From Polytrichum commune (taxonomy: Eukaryota > Streptophyta > Polytrichopsida > Polytrichales > Polytrichaceae), in contig OX485803.1 in assembly GCA_950295325.1 (NCBI GenBank), positions 27,466,001-27,530,000 of the forward strand: 64,000 nucleotides of DNA, in the 5' to 3' direction. Positions 4,021 to 59,880 of the stretch are shown one piece after another. The notes below the pieces were generated by a model. The model saw nothing but the letters and a program-made list of their open reading frames with translations, ran no database searches and was not told where the DNA came from. Every line of letters starts with the position of its first letter. The first letter of the stretch is position 1. The position numbers and the translations under genes are program-made.

Positions 4021-4154
4021 AGACACACGTCCCAAGAAATTGTGGAAGTAGCAGTGTTGATGTTGTTAAATCTTTCAACAGTACACCCGAATTCTCACCG
4101 GAAGGAGCTCAGTGACTGGAGAGTGATGGGGAAATGATGCGGCACTAAAGTTCA

Positions 4155-4155
4155 G

Positions 4156-4187
<32 letters not shown>

Positions 4188-4188
4188 G
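4155..4188. repeat. (GTT)11 microsatellite next to the lectin start
   Basis: Thirty-four bases of perfect GTT triplets end six bases before the lectin ATG. The run is followed by CAG, so it could also serve as the pyrimidine-poor end of a leader intron, but no donor was identified. Confidence 0.9.
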
Positions 4189-4194
4189 CAGGGA

Positions 4195-5292
4195 ATGGCG
4201 AGGTCACGAGGCGGGATGGTGATGTTGCTGCTCTTTGTGGCAATGCTAGCGGCGACTCATCAGAGCGCCAGTGCTACGGGGGAAGCTGCGCCCAAGGGAG
4301 TGACACTCTCATTCCCCCCTTTCAACTCCAAATTCACATGCAGCATCGACCCCGCCATCGGCGTCGACCCCAAGTACATCTGCACTCCCACCACCGACCC
4401 CACCTCACTCGCATTGTCCTACGACGACGACGTCGTGTCCGCCCGCTACCAGTACAAGAGCCCTGTGCAGCTGTGGAAGAAGAATTCCAAGTACGTCGCC
4501 TCCTTCTCCTCCTCCTTCGTTGTCAACTTCGACCGCTCCTCCGAGTACACCATCAAGCACTTGTTCGGTGGCGGTGGGCTGGCGTTCGCCATCACCCCCT
4601 CGTTGTCCGTCATCGGATCCAACAGCGAGAGCCTTGGGCTGTTCGAGATCGACCAGAAGACCGGGAACCCCGTGGCGGGTGTGAGCAGCGCCAAGACGGT
4701 GGCGGTGGAGATCGACGTCTCCCGCAACGGTGAGAGCTGGGACCCCGCCATTCCCCACATCGGCCTCGACGTCAACAGCGTGAAATCCGTCAAGACCAAG
4801 TACTTGGGCGACCCCAACAACTTCGACGACCACAAGGTGAGCAGATTGAACCACCAGAAATTTAATTTTCACTTATAGCATTCCAGAATTCAGATATCGA
4901 CCATTCAAGTAACATTTATAGTCGCAGAAATCCCTGTAACATGTTCAAGCAGCCCCAAAACAGTGCTTCTCAAAAATGTTTAGCAGCTGGGCCAAACCCT
5001 GTTCTAATATAAATGTAATGGGATTATTGTGCAGATTGGGGTGTGGATCGACTACAATGCGCTGACTGGAACCATCCAGGTGCGCACTCACCAAGTGAAG
5101 CAAACTGAGACACCAGACAAGAAGAAATCCCAAATGGCCATCTCCTATAAGGGCCTCGACCTCGCCTCCACCGTCAACGACTTCTCCTACGTCGGATTCT
5201 CTTCCAGGGTGCCCAAGACCCCGAATGGCATTTACAGGATCTACAACTGGACGTTCACCACCTCCTGGGTGCTTGGTACCAAGATGCACTAG
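4195..5292 (+). CDS. Secreted legume-type lectin, two exons
   Basis: Exons 4195-4836 and 5035-5292 (phase 0, donor AAG|GTGAGC, acceptor GTGCAG|ATT) give 299 residues. Residues 1-27 are a signal peptide with a hydrophobic core VMLLLFVAMLAA and a likely cut after SASA, so the product should be extracellular or vacuolar. The rest is one legume-lectin beta-sandwich: VAVEIDVSRNGESWDP...HIGLDVNSV carries the Asp, Asn, Asp and His that bind Ca and Mn in the family, and VWIDYNALTGTIQV is the usual back-sheet strand. The sugar-loop Asp of the canonical DGLAF motif is Gly here (GGGGLAF), so normal monosaccharide binding is doubtful. There is no transmembrane helix or kinase, so it is a free lectin. The ATG at 4195 is chosen because it directly precedes the signal peptide; upstream TTG codons only extend a Leu run. 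Many angiosperm lectin genes lack introns; this one has a 198-base intron. Confidence 0.9.
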
Positions 5293-50700: not shown

Positions 50701-51179
50701 AATTGATGAGGTTGCCCATTTTAAATTATAACTACCACTACACAATCATTGTAAAAGAAAAACCTAAAAAAAGAAATGAGCAAGAAGCGAACACATGCAA
50801 CGAGGAGGAAAAAAATGTTTATTTAACATTATAGCATGAGGCCCGTCCAAAAGTTTGGAAAAAAACAAAATGAGTCACGGAGGTGGAGAAACTCCAAATC
50901 AATATGAATTATCACAGAAATCCAATGATAAACATGGAAACCGCATGAGAGCAGAGGAGCCTAAAGACAAAAATTACAAAACATAAAGGATAAAGTACAA
51001 ACAATGTAACGAATAAAACATTATATTCGTTAAATTGAGACTTTTTGGGCATTTTGAGACATTCACAGAAATAAGAACAAGGATAAATGGAACACATATT
51101 GGTGAAAGTTGTAAGATGCAAACACTTTGAAGCGGGTGTTTAGACCAAGAACCCCATTAATAATTCATATTTGTGATGG
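50701..51179. other. Non-coding spacer
   Basis: AT-rich with nothing identifiable. Confidence 0.45.
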
Positions 51180-51425
51180 TTTAGGGTGGGCAATCCAAAC
51201 CTTAGACCAAATTGAAGGGGAAATCTTAAAACATTCATATTAATGCACACAAAATATGAGAGCTTGTATGAATATGGTTTAGGTAGGGCAATCCAAACCA
51301 TAGATCTTATTGAAGGGAAAATCTTAAAACATTCATATTAATGCACACAAAATATGAGAGCTTGTATGAATATGGTTTAGGTAGGGCACTCCAAACCTTA
51401 GACCATATTGAAGGGAAAATCATGT
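51180..51425. repeat. 98-bp tandem repeat, about 2.5 units
   Basis: Units start at TTTAGG 51180, 51278 and 51376, exactly 98 bases apart. The first two are nearly identical over TCTTAAAACATTCATATTAA and AATATGAGAGCTTGTATGAA; the third stops after about 48 bases. Confidence 0.9.
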
Positions 51426-52126
51426 GACACTTATATTATTGCAAAAAAAACATACAAAGTATGGCATGTAAAATAATGCATAGCATGCTAACACCACACA
51501 TCCATTGGATAGTGCGACCCAAAATCATATTGCCTATGGCCCAAAACCCTACACCTACTATAGCCTATCTAGCCTCGGAGACTGCCTCTTTTTCTTTTGC
51601 TCGCATTGCTTCAACATTCCTGAAAATCTCCGCCCCGCGACTATAGCCATTCTTGGGGTGTGTGGGAACACGCGAACACCAACATATCCGGATTGGCGTT
51701 TTTAAGTGCCTAATCCGGTTTTGTCCGGATGACCCTAGTATCGTCTAGGGATTCTGTGAAGTGTAGGAGGTCTAGAACTCTCCGTACCTGCTTATCTCCT
51801 CTTCCTTCGCCAAATTTCCGGAAACCCTAATTTCCGGACTTTTGGTTTTTAGGACACTCTTCATCTTCTTCCGGAGTGTGCCTTTCCGGATTGTACCTCT
51901 AGGTCCTAATTATAATGCTAACTCACCCCTCTACGTCTACCCTCTAGAATAGGTGGTTCCTTCCGGTGAAGACGTCCTTTATAAGATTGGAATCTGGAAA
52001 CTCCCTCACAATCAATCCGGATTGATCAGATCCGTCCTGGCACGTCACGCAGAGAGATCCGGATTATTTCTTAGGACCACAGTAACCACAAGAGTCCGGA
52101 TTCCAACCGGAGATCTGACTCGACGG

Positions 52127-52640
52127 GATAAGTGGGTGACCCGTACCACTTTCCGGATTGTCCCGTCCACCGGCGATGAGACCTCTTCGGAAGATCAGAT
52201 TGGCGCAAGTCCGGATCCCTCCCGGACCTTTGCCCAATCTTCCCCACGGCTATCTCACCTGGACGTTACCCATACATCCGGAACAATGAGGATCTCTTCC
52301 CACTACACTCCGGAGGTGGTCTCCAACCCGGAACCCTTACTGATCCGGTCCTTCCCTTCTCCTTCTGACAGATCTGTCCGGCTACCTCTACCTTGGATTC
52401 CACTCAATCTGAGCTAACTGGGCGATCCGTACCACCTTCCGGTTTGGTCCGTCTAAGGGCGGTGGAACCTCTTCAGAAGATCAGATTGGCATAATTCCGG
52501 GTCCCTTCCGGATCTCTCCCAATCCTCCCAGCGACTATCCCACCTAGACGTTACTCAACCATCCGGATTAGTGAGGTTTCCCTCCCACTACACACAGAGA
52601 GGATCTACAAGGCAATAACCAGATCAGATCCGGGTCTCCT
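52127..52640. repeat. 286-bp direct repeat, two units
   Basis: CCGTACCACTTTCCGG at 52141 and CCGTACCACCTTCCGG at 52427 start two units that continue with GAAGATCAGATTGGC, CCCAATC and CACCTGGACGTTAC/CACCTAGACGTTAC in order. The units are clearly homologous but diverged. An open frame at 51953-52417 crosses the first unit and is not thought to be coding. Confidence 0.75.
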
Positions 52641-53034
52641 CTCCCATGTCCTATCTGGAACTCCTATCCCTCATGCTCTCTCTCCTCCGCTAACGATCTC
52701 CGGATCATTCATGCAAACATCAATCAAGGAAAGTCAAGGAATGAGAAACCAAGGAATTTATTAGAGTAGGAGCAATCAAAATACAACAATGGAGAAGGAA
52801 CACTTCCCCATCTCCTTATTCAGCCTTAAGTAGAGGCTCAAAATCCCTAATTTGAGGGCGGCGGCCCAGGCGGCCGCCCCTAAGGAAAACCCTAACTACA
52901 CCCGTTCTCCCGGATTAAGATCCGGATTTTCCGCTGACACACCCAAGGGAGAATTTTATTCCTCATTTTCAAAAACTCCTAAGTCCTACCTGCCTACCTC
53001 TATTCTGCCTAACTAATCTAGTTACTCTCCTAAG

Positions 53035-55085
53035 CTAAGAAGAGCGGTGCTTCTTCTGAGCCGATCCGTCTTTCGAGTGACTACCGAGTCCACTGACGGC
53101 GGATGAGCCCCCTCCCGGCGATGCCTTCTGTAGCCGCGTGAACATCCTCCTCATGTTCGGAGACGGGGCAATCTCGTCCTCCGAATCCACTGCTCCCTCG
53201 GTCCGCGGTGTTCCGGTCCCTGGTGTTCCGGAAACTGTCCCCTTCCGGATGCTCCGAACTGGAGAAGGATCGCTTCCGGTGCCCTGTTCCGGATTCTGCC
53301 CGCCTGAGATCGAGGCAGTCCGCGGATCCTTGTTGGAGGCCGCCCTTGAGGGTGGCGGAGGAAAGGGACTAACCATTTGGCAGTCCGGAGGAGACGACGG
53401 CGAGGCGTGGGTCATAGGGGCCTTGCCCCTACTCGGAGTTGCCTCTCGATCTGAAGTCTGATGCCGGATCGGTGTCCTAGCCCTGTCCGGAGTCCGGGAC
53501 CGATCCGAGGTCCGCGGAACAGGGGACTGGCCTCTTCCGGATCTGACAGACCCGGTACTCTTCCTCCTCACCTGGGGAGAACGGACCCTTTCCGGAGCTC
53601 TCCCGGAACTAGCAGGCCGAGAGCCGCCTCCCTGCTGACTGGGTCCTGCGGACGTTGGCGGAATCTGAACCAAAGCGACCTCGCCAACTACCTCGTAGAG
53701 GGTTCCGGTTGGTGACCCAGGCGGACCCGGATAGAGTACCCGCCGGGGTGTTCCACTTGGCGGAACCACCTTCTGGATTTCCGCCAGGAGATCCTTCATC
53801 GTCCGTGAGTACTTCACGAGGATGGTAAGGGTCTGTCTGGCGGAAGCGGGCTCTCCGGACTCCATCATCCGGTCGTAGAGATGCGCCTTGTTGACGATCT
53901 CTGCCGGATGCCCCACCAGCTCCCGGATCCGGCTGAAGACCACTGCCTGCTCCGCGTGGTACTTCCGGATCTCCTCGCTCTTTTGACTCAGCTCCTGAGT
54001 CATGGCCGCTACCTGCGCGGTGAGATGGGCGTTCTCTGTCTTGGCCTGCTCAAGCTCCTTCCTGTCCGCCCTCTTTGCCAATTCCCGGAGAATATTTCCG
54101 GGTCCGCAGTCGTCCAGGGCATGGTTCGCCCCTCGGACGATGTGTTCCAGCCGGTAGTACTAGTTCTGCAGGTCCTCCATCCCCCCTCCTGGATCCGCTT
54201 GAAGGGATTCTCCGGAAAGTCCCAAGCGGATAGATCCACATTCCGCCACGTGGTCTCCCGGCTGGGTCCGGCTTCCGGATGATGGTGAGGAGGGGGAAGA
54301 GAGAGTGGCCTCGAGATGGTTGGCGGCGGGCTTCCGGGTGACGAGGGAGGTGCTTCCGGAATGATTGGGTCGCTGGAAGTTTCCGTCTCGAGGTCTCCGG
54401 TTTCCGGGAGGAGCTTGTAGGTGACCTCGTCCGCCGCTATCGTTAGCAGGTCCTCCTCCTCTGCCAAGATGCAGTCGAAATGCTGGTAGAGATGCAGAAT
54501 GAAGGGGGAGAAGGAGGGTTTCCGGCCAATATGGGGGAGGGCCCGCCCTACTATTTCTTGGATAATCAGCCCCCAGTTCACGGGCCGGACTCCGGACATG
54601 GCACCGAACAGGGTGTTAGCCATGGTGAGGCTAATCCGCTTCGGCTTGTCCGGATTGAGGATAGGCAGGAGGAACTCTAGTACCCTCCGCTCTCGCAGGT
54701 TCTGACAGTTCCCGGGATGGAAGCCGTCCTTCGGATCCGCGTCCCCTCTGAATTTTCCGGCGAACAGGCCGTCGCGGCGGCCGGCCCACCCCTCTGCAAT
54801 CCCCCTAGGAAACCCGTAGACCCTATTCCAAGTATCCGGAGTCCAATTTTCCGGATCCCTTCTCTTTGTTCCTAGCCACTGATTTCCTCTCTCGAATTTG
54901 AATTCTCGGAGGGTATCTTCTGCTCGGAGGTTCCAGGGTTTGGAGAGCAACCCCGCGCAGCCCATAACCCGGAGATCTTATGCGAGCTCCTGCAGCTCCC
55001 TATCCTCCCTCGGAATTGCAAGGGTGAGGGCTTTGAGCGGAATCGGGATGGGTTCCCTCTGATCCTCTTCCCGTGCTTCCGGCAT
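53035..55085 (-). pseudogene. Broken repeat-borne gene, gag-like in texture
   Basis: On the minus strand the ATG at 55085 starts MPEAREEDQREPIPIPLKAL and runs to a TAA about 115 bases later; the same frame continues through MGCAGLLSKPWN (54965) for about 255 residues. A one-base frameshift in a run of six G (about 54181-54186), then a TAG near 54162, lead into the last frame, MAKRADRKELEQAKTE..., ending at 53035. The parts in order are an N-terminal globular region (WTPDTWNRVYGFPRG, NTLFGAMSGVRPVNWGLIIQ), a Pro/Ser linker, a coiled coil (ELEQAKTENAHLTAQVAAMT) and a long Pro/Ser/Arg-rich basic tail. No zinc knuckle, protease or polymerase is seen. It resembles structural proteins of plant transposable elements in layout, but I do not recognise the family. 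Confidence 0.6.
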
Positions 55086-55650
55086 TTTTCTCTCCTTTCT
55101 CAATTTCCGGCTCGACTACGGAAAATCTCTTTCTCTCTCCCTCTCTCTTCCGGATTCCCTCTCTTCCGTCTAATTGCTACAGAGTCCCGGCAAGCCAACT
55201 GCCGGTGACTGAAAAGTGCGGAGTCCCAGCAATCCAACTGCGGGCGGCTCGAAATGAAGACAAACTCACCACTCGTTCTCTCAGCAATTTGCCTTTTGTG
55301 AATCAGAAAAAAAAGTGGGAAGGAGAAGGAAGGGACCCTTAAATATCCCTCCTCCCTGTTCCTTCCCCTGTTACCGTTTGGTTTAACGGAAAACGGTTAC
55401 AACCGTCTTCCGACGGTTTTCCCTCAACCGTCATAAACCCGTTGTAACCGCCACTTCCGGACCGTTGGGTAATCTTGGCGCGACCGTTACTCGGTCCGGA
55501 CTAGCGGTTCGGACCATGATTAAACGGTCCGCCAATCCAATTTGACGGACCGGTCATAATACTCATTTTTATTCGTTTTATCGCACAACGCGGATTTAGA
55601 ATGCCCTATTTCCTAGTACAAGTAATTTATCCTAAGAGACCCTATTATCC

Positions 55651-56376
55651 TCATACAAGCAAGGTAAAATACGGAAATTGAATCCGTATTTCCGTATTTC
55701 TGTATTTCCGTCGAATTTGGACTCCCACAGGGTGACCGCCATCCATAACACATTTTGGATTCCGTCGGCCGCCCGAAGTATACGACGAAGAATTCGAATA
55801 CGATGAAGTGGACTGTCTTGCATTTTTGGTCTTGGAGTAGAAACGCTCCAACTCGATGGACGCACTAGACCGCATAGGTTTACGGGTGGGAGCAACCTGC
55901 AACACGTCAATGCAAAGACACATGTGTTAGTTTAGGGGGGAAGACCCAAACGTGTCACACGTTCCTTTGTTTAGTGAAAAATGATTGAAATGCGCGGTAA
56001 ACCATGTGGGGGGGGGGTTCACCTTGTCACCGGGGGCGTTCGCGTCCGAGTTGGCGAGGAGAGGCAAGGCGTCCCGCAAAGGGATAGGAAGGGTGCCACT
56101 CTTCGTAGGCCGAGCGTCCATCCGAAGCCGCCGTTGAGGTGTAATGCTGCCGCCGGGCTGAGAGGGGGACGTCCAAACGCATTTGCGATCTATGCCCTTG
56201 AGCGGCGACGGGGACGGAGATCGCCGGAAGATTTGCTTGGGTGGGGGGCTATCGACGATGCCGGCGTCAAGAGGCTCCTTGGAGTAGTCAATGGTTGACG
56301 CGGCGTCGTAAATGGTCTCGTAGAAGAAGCTCCCCAAGTCTGACTCGCTGACGATCTCAATCGAGGGCTCCAAACG
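55651..56376 (-). CDS. Two spliced exons downstream of the FCP1-like exon
   Basis: Exons 56376-56023 and 55896-55651 join in phase 0 (acceptor TTTTTGCGCCAG, donor AAG|GTGAAC, acceptor GTGTTGCAG). They encode about 199 residues rich in Ser, Pro and Arg (LEPSIEIVSESDLGSFFYET, RRSPSPSPLKG, SSYSNSSSYTSGGRR) without a known domain. They follow the FCP1-like exon on the same strand, but that exon ends in TGA at 56530 and I found no in-frame splice between them. They may be an alternative 3' part, a separate unit, or a portion cut off by the stop. Confidence 0.4.
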
Positions 56377-56479
56377 CTGGCGCAAAAAGGAAACGAAACA
56401 AAACCCAAGGCAAGAGGGTTTGCTAGAGAGCGTGAAATCAAGATACATGTGAAGCATATATTACACAAAGTGGACGGGC

Positions 56480-56529: not shown

Positions 56530-57342
56530 TCAAATGAGCTTGTTAAATTTCGCGTGAGATAACAACTCTCTGTACAAATGGTCTCGTGGATCCAAGTATC
56601 TCTCGCCTATGGGATTATTCCTAACAAAATTGTTTACGGGTAGTCCGCTACCCCAGAGCGCCTGGAGGTATTTACTAAGGTCTAACAAAAATCGGTCCCG
56701 GACCTTCTCGACCGTCCACGTAGGGCAAACTATGAAGTTGGCCGTCGGGTTCAACATGTTTTTGGCAGCGCTGTCGTCCACCATGAGCGTGTTCTCGCGG
56801 GTGGGGCGGACGTCGTAGGGGACGCCTATCAAGGACGGACGCTGGTCCCAAAAAATGGGCTTCAAGACCTTGAGATATTGGGGGGAAGCGGGGTTGTTTG
56901 GTTTTTTGACGACTTTGCCGTCCCGTGTGTACAATATTCTACATGCTTCCTGTGCTAGGACCATGCACGGGGGCTCGATGCCCTTGAAGATGAACTCCAC
57001 GACCGCATTGGTGTTCTCGGCCTTCATGGAGCTCCACACGACCACCCACCATCGTTGTTGGGCGATCTGCAGGAAGGTCTGAAGCCACGGGCGGAGGTGA
57101 ACTAGCTTGCTCTTTATGAACGTGGGCGGCCCGTCGTAATTAGCGTCCTCGGGCTTGCAAAAGGGCACCGTGGGAGCCCTAGGGCAATGAACGCACTGCA
57201 CGAGGACACCGTTCAGGTCTAACACCATGAATCGTTTCTTCGGCAGCGGGGGCGGGGCGGGTAAAACCGGGGGGGCTGCCGCGCTGCCCTCTCTGCTCCT
57301 TGGAGAAGAGCGTCGGGGAGCCGCTACGCTATGCTCCGAGCC
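56530..57342 (-). CDS. FCP1-like (HAD-type) phosphatase domain exon
   Basis: The exon runs from a good acceptor (ATCCGCAG| at 57343) to TGA at 56530: 38 Pro/Ala/Arg-rich residues, then about 232 residues of FCP1-homology (NIF) domain. HAD motif I reads VLDLNGVLV, motif II VVVWSS, and motif III VDDSAAKNMLNP, with the fold otherwise complete (HLRPWLQTFLQIAQ, HLYRELLSHAKF near the end). The second Asp of the catalytic DxDx(T/V) is Asn, which should impair classical phosphatase chemistry; Asn at this site is, from memory, common in plant uncharacterised members. It joins the exon ending at 57855 in phase 0. Substrate and role are unknown; FCP1 relatives act on the RNA polymerase II tail, but that cannot be assumed here. 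Confidence 0.75.
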   Translation of the reverse strand, partial: GSEHSVAAPRRSSPRSREGSAAAPPVLPAPPPLPKKRFMVLDLNGVLVQCVHCPRAPTVPFCKPEDANYDGPPTFIKSKLVHLRPWLQTFLQIAQQRWWVVVWSSMKAENTNAVVEFIFKGIEPPCMVLAQEACRILYTRDGKVVKKPNNPASPQYLKVLKPIFWDQRPSLIGVPYDVRPTRENTLMVDDSAAKNMLNPTANFIVCPTWTVEKVRDRFLLDLSKYLQALWGSGLPVNNFVRNNPIGERYLDPRDHLYRELLSHAKFNKLI

Positions 57343-57854
57343 CTGCGGATACGAGCGAGAGAAAACGGGGGCGACTTATGTCATGCTATGTCCAAACGAA
57401 GCATTAAGGAAATGAGTGTTCTCGGTGCAAACACAAAACCATTTGATTCATTTTGGAGGGGGTGCAACAAGGGATACAAGAGAGGCAAGAGCATACAACA
57501 TACATTCAAACACAAGATACAAGTATATAGGAGTAACAAATGGTGATTATATTGTATACAATGCTCTATGTACATCTTGATTGGGGGGAGCCGCGTTGAA
57601 CGATGCGTTCAAACTAGCCTAGTTCTACATCTAGCAAAATTTGAAGAGACGGGCCGCCGTGATGAAGACTTCGTCGCAAGCCGGGGGTATGTGGACGATC
57701 GGATGGTCGGGGGGATGTGGCGAAGGGCGCGAGTGCCGGGGGGGGCGACGTGTGCGTGAGTTTAGGGTAGCTAGGGGACACGACCAAGGCAAGAAGACAA
57801 AGACCCAGGGAGTTTGGGTCGACCGACCCAAACTGAGTGGGGTCAGTGCATTAC

Positions 57855-58500
57855 CTCGCCTTGGTCGTGCCTTGACGCCGTGGATGCCGTCACCGCGTGC
57901 GCTGCCCCACCGCCTCCGACGACGAAGTCAGCCGCAACTTGCTCCTGCAAAGGCTGATTGTCAGGCCTTTGTCCCAACCCAACCTCCGCATGCGCATCAT
58001 GCATTGGTTCATCGACTGGGTTAGGAGTATAGGTATCACTAGGCCCTTGCGGGCCTTCAACATCTAGCATGGGCTCGTCCACCGGGGTTTGATCAGGGAC
58101 GGGGTTTGGGTCGGCCGACCCAAACCCAGTTGCTTGGCGAGGGTCGCTCTGGGACGCTGCAACGTCGGCACTGTTTGGGTCGGAGGACCCAAACATGTGG
58201 GGGTCGTCCCACTGGTGGTGTGGGGGCAAGAGGATGGCATGCCGAAGCGGCGGGGGTGCCAACGAGCTGGAAGATCCGGGGACGCGCCAAAGGTTGGGGT
58301 CGTCCACCTGCTGGACGGGCGCGTAAGGGCGGGCGTGCGGCTGCAGCATATGCCCGAAGCTGAAGGATTGCTGCGGCGCGGGCCGTGGGCCGATGTCCTG
58401 GGGGGGGGAAGCCTGCGGGCAAGTGAGGAAATGAACTTGGCGGAGCCATCACCAAACCCTGCGCCAACATGCCCTGGATCACTTGCATGATCAAGTCCGC
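57855..58500 (-). pseudogene. Low-complexity middle exon of the FCP1 locus, broken upstream
   Basis: The open frame is in phase from about 58415 to the donor GAG|GTAATG at 57855 and joins the FCP1-like exon exactly. It encodes a Pro/Asp/Gln-rich linker (PNLWRVPGSSSSLAPPPLRH, DQTPVDEPMLDVEGPQ). Upstream the neighbouring frame (ADLIMQVIQGMLAQGL then APPSSFPHLPAG) continues from the exon at 58501 but only after a TAA, and shifts by one base at a run of nine C (58390-58398). Either an intron with acceptor TTGCCCGCAG lies here or the locus is damaged. Two copies of the 24-bp palindrome are inside and are translated as FGSSDPN and GFGSADPNP. Confidence 0.5.
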
Positions 58501-59304
58501 TTAGGACGGAGGTTGGGCCATCGCCCTTTGCCGCTCCTGCTCCAACAGGAGAGCCCTCAACTCCGCGACTTCGTTGCAGACCGAGGGTTCCTCGGCGGCA
58601 GCCCTCTGCAATCGGACACGTTGCTCCTCGTCCCTTTGCATTTTGGCATTTGCCTCCTCCACGGTGAGGACCTCGGGTTTCACCCTCACATTCTCGGCGA
58701 ACGCTCTGGGGGAGGCAGGATCCGACCTCAGCCTCTTGGCGAGTTCCATGCCGTCCTCGTCCTCGGAGCTTATGGCGATCGTCTCCTCCACCGCATAGTC
58801 CCCGTACAGCTTCTTGCCCTTCAGCATTCGCCGCTCCCTGAAGGTGGCCGTCGCGTCCCTCGAATCCATGTCGGCCACCGTGAGGACGGGCACTAGCTTG
58901 CTCTGCGGCGTCGCAGCCCGCATGGCCTTCTTCCGCTGAGGGGCTTCGGATTCTTGAATGAATCCTGTTGCCCCTTCCTCCACCTCCCCCTCCACTTTTT
59001 CTGCTTCCTCCTCCTCCTCCTCTTCCCCCTCATCCGCAACCTCGCCACCTGCTCCCATTGACGGATTGCCCGGATGCAACCCGATGAGCGGTTCTGGCAA
59101 TTGAACGGGGGCCCGCATGGCGAATTCACCCGGGTTGATTTGCCTGGCCATATCCAACGGGTTCTCGCCCCCCTCGACGATCTCTTCGACGTAGGATCCG
59201 GGTATCCAGTCAAGGATGTCCATTCTCTTCGCCAGAGCCTTCTGGGTCCTGTAGAATTGAACATCGGCATCATCCACATAGGAGTAGATGTTCAACCCAG
59301 ACAT
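58501..59304 (-). CDS. Acidic/coiled-coil exon of the FCP1 locus
   Basis: From the acceptor ATTGTGCAG| at 59305 the frame reads MSGLNIYSYVDDADVQFYRT, then WIPGSYVEEIVEGGENPLDM, a Glu-rich stretch (GEEEEEEEAEKVEGEVEEG), a basic patch (RKKAMRAATPQSK) and a coiled coil (VEEANAKMQRDEEQRVRLQR) to TAA at 58501. About 267 residues. The upstream exon joins at phase 0. No known domain; the layout of globular head, acidic linker and coiled coil is seen. The TAA may be a secondary break because coding character continues beyond it. Confidence 0.55.
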   Translation of the reverse strand: MSGLNIYSYVDDADVQFYRTQKALAKRMDILDWIPGSYVEEIVEGGENPLDMARQINPGEFAMRAPVQLPEPLIGLHPGNPSMGAGGEVADEGEEEEEEEAEKVEGEVEEGATGFIQESEAPQRKKAMRAATPQSKLVPVLTVADMDSRDATATFRERRMLKGKKLYGDYAVEETIAISSEDEDGMELAKRLRSDPASPRAFAENVRVKPEVLTVEEANAKMQRDEEQRVRLQRAAAEEPSVCNEVAELRALLLEQERQRAMAQPPS

Positions 59305-59477
59305 CTGCACAATCCAAATCAATAATATTAGTATCACCAATGAAGAATAAGGAAAAATGACACCCAAAACAAAACAATAATAGTTAGTTTGGGTCGCTCG
59401 ACCCAAACCATGCATGCCCCTAGTTTGGGTCACTCGACCCAAACTGTCCATATAGTTCCTTCAGGTTATTTGCTTAC

Positions 59478-59880
59478 CATGGCTGCAAAAACCGGTTTGG
59501 AGCCCCCGAAGACGTTGAAGATGCAGTCCCCTCTCTTCGTGAGGGAGCTCATCATCCGCAGGTAGAACTCCATGCGCAGCTCATCTGCGGGGTAGTTGGC
59601 GTACTTCGCCTCGTCGTACAAGCTTCTGTTGGAGCCCAACCCTTCTTGGACTTGGAAGAGCTTCTCCATCCTGGCTATGGGATGGTTTGGCACGTTAAGC
59701 AGCTCAGCTTTGTACACGAAGTACAAGCACAACACGTTGACGATTTTCGTCTTCTTGTCTTTCAGCGTGCTGTACGCCCCCTCCGCCGGTGCAGCAACGT
59801 AGTGAGATTTTGAGACGGCGTTGTCGTGTAATAAATGGTTTAATAAGTAAATATAGTGTGAAATGTTTTGAGAGTAGGAT
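59478..59880 (-). CDS. Upstream exon of the FCP1 locus, start not located
   Basis: The frame is open from about 59880 to the donor ATG|GTAAGC at 59478 and encodes HYVAAPAEGAYSTLKDKK, ELLNVPNHPIARMEKLFQ and NYPADELRMEFYLRMMSSL. It looks globular and coding down to the donor and joins the next exon in phase 0 across an intron of 173 bases. The 5' limit is uncertain: internal ATG codons exist only deep in the frame, and an upstream exon or truncation is possible. Not recognised. Confidence 0.5.

Follow-up and report, generated by a model that had tools for sequence, protein, structure and literature searches.

A palindrome repeated through large DNA transposons of Polytrichum commune is a candidate site of transposon self-recognition

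Introduction

What does one palindrome do when it occurs five times in and around what appears to be a single gene? The question was raised by a first-pass annotation of a 64,000-nucleotide stretch of Polytrichum commune DNA (contig OX485803.1, positions 27,466,001 to 27,530,000), which we call the window and whose coordinates we use throughout. The annotation placed the copies at one FCP1-domain gene and offered two readings, a mobile palindromic unit or binding sites for a factor that controls the locus.

Results

Palindromes in the window

All five palindromes reported for this locus are present, with 0-2 mismatches to AGTTTGGGTC-N4-GACCCAAACT, and the 22-bp core GTTTGGGTCN4GACCCAAAC is exact at 5/5 sites. 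Splice donors and acceptors conserved in other copies of the surrounding element place three of them in introns and two in coding sequence, as the annotation had proposed. The sites of this palindrome, hereafter T, were located by pattern search:

57811..57834, no strand assigned: T palindrome in intron 3, which separates exon A3 from the FCP1 exon; orthologous in copies L006, L007 and L008
58103..58126, no strand assigned: T palindrome within exon A3; followed in other copies
58172..58195, no strand assigned: T palindrome within exon A3, centre GGAG; followed in other copies
59386..59409, no strand assigned: T palindrome in intron 2; orthologous in L007
59422..59445, no strand assigned: T palindrome in intron 2; orthologous in L007

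In 100 dinucleotide-preserving shuffles, AGTTTGGGTC-N4-GACCCAAACT was matched 0 times. Genome-wide (407.8 Mb in 64 contigs), the 22-bp core has 9,577 exact copies and its reversed-pattern control has 0. The arrangement is indeed beyond chance, and the background frequency named in advance as a refutation is not what the genome holds. Elsewhere in the window, an open frame at 4138-4875 carries a legume-lectin domain (PF00139, 1.9e-25), and a tRNA scan of the 64 kb returned no tRNA.

Anatomy of the palindrome

When the spacer was allowed to vary from 0 to 14 bp, the number of copies rose to 9,790, of which 97.8% have exactly N4. Core statistics were taken from 297 instances with at most three mismatches, equal to 241 distinct 46-mers. 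Position 10 is G in 226/241 and position 13 is C in 233/241 of these, which makes each half-site one base longer than first described and gives GTTTGGGTCG-NN-CGACCCAAAC. The consensus base is held at 93-100% per core position, high values that the three-mismatch limit favours.

The bases flanking the core at ±1 are complementary at a frequency of 0.718, compared with 0.361 in shuffled pairs (sd 0.029), which is above the expectation for independent half-sites, and they covary as A.T, T.A and G.C. This pairing persists when each flank context contributes a single copy (0.62-0.70 vs 0.33-0.35), where clustering at thresholds of 0.55-0.8 gave 12 to 64 clusters. Further out the excess is unsteady: it is present at position 8 (0.344; shuffles 0.251) and reversed at position 6 (0.207; shuffles 0.287). 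Because the steady excess stops at ±1, we take the unit to be 24 bp. The centre dinucleotides are restricted, with GT, AC, AT, AG, TT, AA, CT and GC making up 168/173 exact distinct copies from the fetched loci and TA, CG, CA and TG absent from them. One extended palindrome, GTTTGGGTCGAGC-AAAAT-GCTCGACCCAAAC (G000, C1:1020527-1020557), falls outside the main spacer class. Scanned viral contigs gave no match to the palindrome, and literature searches on such palindromes, including TTTGGGTCG as letters, returned nothing on the topic among the matches listed.

The host element

The palindromes of the window lie in a copy of a transposon that we call A. Two A elements, R1 (18,084 bp) and R2 (16,952 bp), were read with both flanks; their ends are perfect 28-bp inverted repeats, bordered by 4-bp target duplications (AAGT in R1, TTAT in R2). 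With terminal inverted repeats and target-site duplications, A elements are inverted-repeat DNA transposons. Gene D, on one strand, matches DUF7869 (2e-41 in R2, 7e-38 in R1), with one extra sub-threshold match, and is a putative transposase; a literature search on DUF7869 found no paper. On the opposite strand, gene A consists of exons A1, A2 and A3 and an exon with a NIF/FCP1 domain. The "FCP1-domain gene" of the window corresponds to the 3' half of a DNA transposon, 17-18 kb when complete, that is truncated here: only the right half is left, from 59846 down to 51017, and its frames are disrupted. The first-pass annotation was wrong on scope, in that the sites belong to no single host locus and are repeated inside a transposon of high copy number. 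The parts of the window copy are as follows:

59478..59846, minus strand: 3' part of exon A2; the upstream part of the element is missing, and homology to R1 ends at 59846
57855..59304, minus strand: exon A3 (MSGLNIYSY..., acidic and coiled-coil by eye), in two frames in the window copy; open frames and shared splice sites
56533..57342, minus strand: NIF/FCP1 phosphatase-like exon with the motif DLNGV (PF03031, E=1.2e-14); acceptor shared with other copies
55930..56460, minus strand: open frame and downstream exon A5, conserved in R1 and R2
51656..55730, no strand assigned: insertion of ~4.1 kb into the element copy, with ends TGTGGGA...TCCCACA and an apparent duplication of 5 bp, CACCC
51017..51660, minus strand: right terminus of the element, including an inverted terminal repeat with one mismatch, by comparison with R1 and R2

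The ~4.1 kb insertion contains two long open frames with no Pfam match at E 0.01, and long terminal repeats sought in it were not found.

The A family looks large, young and recently active. A first look with exon A1 gave 1,107 candidates in the genome, and of the 95 that were scored, nine (the query copy included) are 100% identical to the query and 62 of about 95 have no stop, as read by eye. The T palindrome occurs in 11/11 A loci, three of which were found via the palindrome and eight via the protein; the latter (8/8) form an unbiased set because the palindrome played no part in finding them.

In the two full regions, 36/36 (R1) and 27/27 (R2) palindrome copies lie inside the element borders, those of R1 being separated from its ends by 5.3 kb and 2.7 kb. 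Many form minisatellites between genes D and A in R1 (units of 78, 35 and 158 bp) and between the two genes in R2 (39/44 and 64/121 bp), others form intron arrays in R1/R2 (57, 36 and 46 bp), and palindromes are also found at two exon positions. Most copies elsewhere are likewise arrayed in tandem, and the repeat units of these arrays measure 32 to 158 bp. The first 100 listed core copies fall into seven clusters (C1:438279 to 2159727), the other 9,477 places being unlisted; three of these clusters are A elements, and the remaining four are in or next to stretches of a second transposon, B/C, all seven having been read at least partly. The identical 24-mer is found in unrelated introns, exons and spacers as well as in a second transposon class.

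Conservation between subfamilies

We compared the window copy with L007, a copy of another subfamily, over 2,041 aligned bases. Overall identity is 75.6%, and all five palindromes are orthologous. At these five sites 88/90 core bases are the same, compared with 41-80% identity in the flanks, and the centres differ at 5/5 (binomial P=5e-9 for core identity against overall identity); the test rests on the L007 bases, because the window cores had been chosen for exactness. Three of the window sites could be traced in L006 and L008 as well. Neither at these three positions nor at the five of L007 did we see an empty site. The annotation had also allowed for coding or splice features inherited in every paralogue: the sites are inherited in paralogues, but splice features they are not.

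Other palindromes of the same design

One gene of the B/C transposon, its putative transposase, matches SWIM marginally (E=0.076, below the cut-off). Adjoining it is gene C, a member of a large protein family in which the E proteins are relatives of gene C at 37-41% identity. Three further palindromes are associated with these genes: Cp, GTGCGTTAACGCAC, i.e. CCCTGTGCG-TTAA-CGCACAGGG, with 724 genome copies; G1, GTGTCTCGGNNCCGAGACAC, with 997; and G2, GGGTTCGGNNCCGAACCC, with 124. The reversed control gave 0 for each. They share a design in which a 2-4 bp centre separates two mirror-image CpGs, and are often arrayed at the C or E gene.

Loci found by protein carry matching sites. G1 is present in 6/6 E1 loci and G2-type sites in 2/2 E2 loci (three exact G2 in one; imperfect copies plus AGGTTTCGGGACCGAAACCT only in the other), and exact T is present in none of either group. 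Cp or a close variant occurs in 10/12 C loci, or 9/11 when L009, which had been found by its T palindromes, is left out. T itself occurs in 7/12 C loci and is missing in the five C copies that are more divergent (L047-L051). Around the Cp core of L047 there is a perfect palindrome of 56 bp, whose outer arms vary among copies yet stay complementary.

Clustering was evaluated on the first 50 listed places per palindrome against the listed C/E matches, which are part of the lists, with a limit of 5 kb. A listed C/E exon lies within this distance of 7/8 Cp clusters (all of them 5' of the gene and no more than 1.1 kb away), 4/6 G1 clusters and 8/11 G2 clusters, and the chance of such a match is ~0.4% per cluster. 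The 6/25 clusters without a matching listed exon within 5 kb are one of Cp (C1:461579), two of G1 (C1:468608, C1:10990945) and three of G2 (C1:53310388, 14.6 kb away; C2:63185324; C3:10351861). From the side of the proteins, a G1 cluster is found at 4/9 listed E matches on C1 below 19.9 Mb and none at 5/9 (identity 64-81%).

In 10/10 further E-subfamily loci, T, Cp, G1 and G2 are all absent within ~2 kb, so the palindrome design is not universal in the C/E protein family. A further palindrome, AGAGGCCTCGGATCCGAGGCCTCT, lies near E-type genes in L151 (two copies, 2554 and 2818) and L034. Among the other further E loci, eight have at most one inverted repeat of the counted kind and L153 has four unlike ones.

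Proteins of genes A and C

Gene A combines a region with a DGQHS motif, a methyltransferase-like motif (NVFGGSKPIFAAM in exon A2 of the related copy R1), a coiled coil and the NIF/FCP1 domain, all but the last recognised by eye or weakly. The downstream exons of gene C match PF01555 at E=7.1e-4 (20.0 bits, cut-off 26.7). We aligned both proteins by hhalign to 80 ParB-methyltransferase proteins, 79 from IMG/VR contigs plus L030. Gene C aligns at motif I (P=2.2e-4, probability 45%; reversed decoy 0.59), and gene A aligns there without significance (probability 1.3%). Gene C thus weakly resembles an N6/N4 DNA methyltransferase in sequence; gene A had no Pfam match to this class. Catalytic motif IV of N6/N4 methyltransferases is (D/N/S)PP(Y/F/W). 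Its presumed place reads LQFPDG in gene C and RNIPG in gene A and looks degenerate by eye in both, which would point to a binding rather than a catalytic role. Homology between the A and C proteins is not significant (hhalign probability 0.4%).

A ParB identity, which we retain as a lead from reading the DGQHS/DGNHR region by eye, failed the PF02195 and profile tests. PF02195 was matched neither in gene C exons (E<10) nor in gene A, nor by any A or C/E copy, and the ParB part of A and C aligned without significance to the 80 reference proteins. A PDB profile search for ParB gave four matches at E<=10, none of them ParB (the best, E 0.046, is a ribosomal protein), and PDB searches with the A protein and a gene C exon gave nothing useful. 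A phage relative of the A protein was sought by tblastn, and the 26 records (best E ~1) were taken as chance. Genome-wide, PF02195 has only four matches at E<=1, all on the small contigs C10, C12 and C23, which are probably contaminants; they carry bacterial or phage-type ParB proteins (L032, L030 and L031, respectively), in L030 together with a full N6/N4 methyltransferase. No relatives of L030 were found in the genome contigs collection.

Phosphatases of the FCP1 kind carry DxDxT. The FCP1-like domain at 56533-57342 has DLNGV in its place, and may possibly be catalytically dead, judging by this motif. DUF1985 and DUF287 gave no Pfam match in exons A1-A3 or in the scanned gene C exons.

Discussion

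On balance, we favour the reading that the palindrome is a self-recognition site of a large DNA transposon family, meant for a transposon-encoded binding protein that counters silencing. Factor binding, one of the two original proposals, is still the best reading of these sites; its scope, control of a host locus, is not. Related transposons with different palindromes of the same design suggest that the family marks itself with sites for its own protein. The system would probably be an anti-silencing one that works like VANC/VANDAL, yet is not a member of that group. The sites are conserved over the element, differ between related families, are arrayed at the accessory gene and occur in two transposon classes, and it is this match with VANC that leads us to propose a self-opening binder. 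The accessory protein, or its dimer, would bind palindromes along its own element and thereby prevent or reverse host silencing, as VANC does for VANDAL, where the loss of DNA methylation is sequence-specific; demethylation of the element may be part of this. Tandem duplication would supply more sites, and some B/C elements may have taken over the palindrome of A and may make use of its protein. Since protein and palindrome travel in one element, their co-occurrence is expected even without recognition, and pure dimer recognition does not explain the ±1 complementarity beyond independent half-sites. Further points against the reading are that the A and C proteins are not significantly homologous, that ten further E loci go without all four palindromes and 5/9 listed E matches on C1 without a G1 cluster, and that 6/25 clusters have no matching exon nearby. 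A broader proposal, which we put forward only tentatively, is that several transposon families address themselves by parS-like palindromes containing a mirrored pair of CpGs, and that unrelated transposons steal each other's address.

The excess pairing brings in structure. An RNA hairpin or DNA cruciform, with a role in processes such as splicing, replication or the production of small RNAs, would agree with the covariation at ±1, which survives with one representative per flank context, and with the extension of C-family palindromes into perfect arms of differing sequence, up to 56 bp. We consider it unlikely: a structural role would tolerate compensatory changes in the arms, whereas the core is nearly fixed, within the three-mismatch limit, and the spacer is 4 in almost all copies. 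Template-switch correction of imperfect palindromes is a known mutational mechanism, and outer pairing could arise through it without function.

Binding sites for the transposase itself, like the subterminal repeats of En/Spm, would account for the many sites per element and for the arrays adjoining gene D. This is quite unlikely, because the sites of R1 are too far from the ends to be subterminal and because the palindrome recurs in B/C, whose putative transposase, with its marginal SWIM match, is an unrelated gene. It is improbable, too, that the palindromes have no function and arose as a side effect of quasi-palindrome correction and tandem duplication in transposons that evolve fast; tandem arrays, outer pairing of a kind that fits a mutational origin and the many E loci without palindromes would suit such a history, but the core was kept at five orthologous sites with diverged flanks, the spacer is fixed, and the core is common to unrelated contexts and a second transposon class. 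An independently mobile 24-bp unit inserting in frame, the other original proposal, could explain why A and B/C array units share the palindrome without evident flank similarity, but we regard it as very improbable, given five window sites orthologous in L007, no empty site, tandem arrays elsewhere and A or B/C sequence in all seven of the first listed clusters.

The self-recognition reading draws on a precedent from Arabidopsis, where VANC/VANDAL is described as an anti-silencing system (PMC5735166, PMC10398659). According to PMC5735166, related VANC proteins have different motifs, repeated in tandem in non-coding parts, the VANC6 motif is also present in the unrelated AT9TSD1, and the VANC domains are DUF1985 and DUF287 (Fig. 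5 legend). The likeness to our elements lies in an accessory gene beside the transposase, in a short motif tandemly repeated in non-coding parts (here with predicted recognition), in related proteins with differing motifs (C/Cp, E1/G1 and E2/G2, with ten further E loci lacking them) and in one motif shared with an unrelated transposon. In contrast to VANDAL, the motif here is a palindrome of 20-24 bp with a 2-4 bp centre that is also found in introns and exons, element A ends in inverted repeats and is bordered by duplications of 4 bp, and the scanned proteins carry methyltransferase-like and NIF/FCP1 parts without DUF1985 or DUF287.

Other systems resemble this one in part. Like parS sites of ParB, the palindromes are clustered near a gene, here one with a DGxH motif seen by eye, and gene C has its methyltransferase-like motif I downstream, in the order of phage ParB/N6-N4 methyltransferase fusions; the A and C/E copies differ in lacking PF02195 and in their motif IV, degenerate by eye. 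En/Spm (CACTA) elements have TNPA subterminal repeats, CACTA ends and a 3-bp duplication. Element A shares with them repeated sites in one element for a proposed element-encoded DNA-binding protein, but its sites are internal, its ends read AACACTATATTCG... and its duplication is 4 bp, and it is accordingly not an En/Spm element. The Sola superfamily has 4-bp target-site duplications and inverted ends, as does element A, and the comparison is by these features alone; gene D of element A matches DUF7869. VirB is a relative of ParB. A bacterial precedent is described in PMC10653881, where VirB offsets silencing by H-NS.

If our reading is true, these transposons would hold a second, unrelated anti-silencing system, with long exact palindromes and several site types in one genome, one of them in 9,577 copies. 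To our knowledge, sequence-specific anti-silencing by transposons is known only from VANDAL elements. The arms race between transposons and silencing would then be testable by simple binding assays, and the family may be a source of addressable DNA-binding modules. The presence of one palindrome in two classes of transposon would give direct evidence that one element exploits the protein of another.
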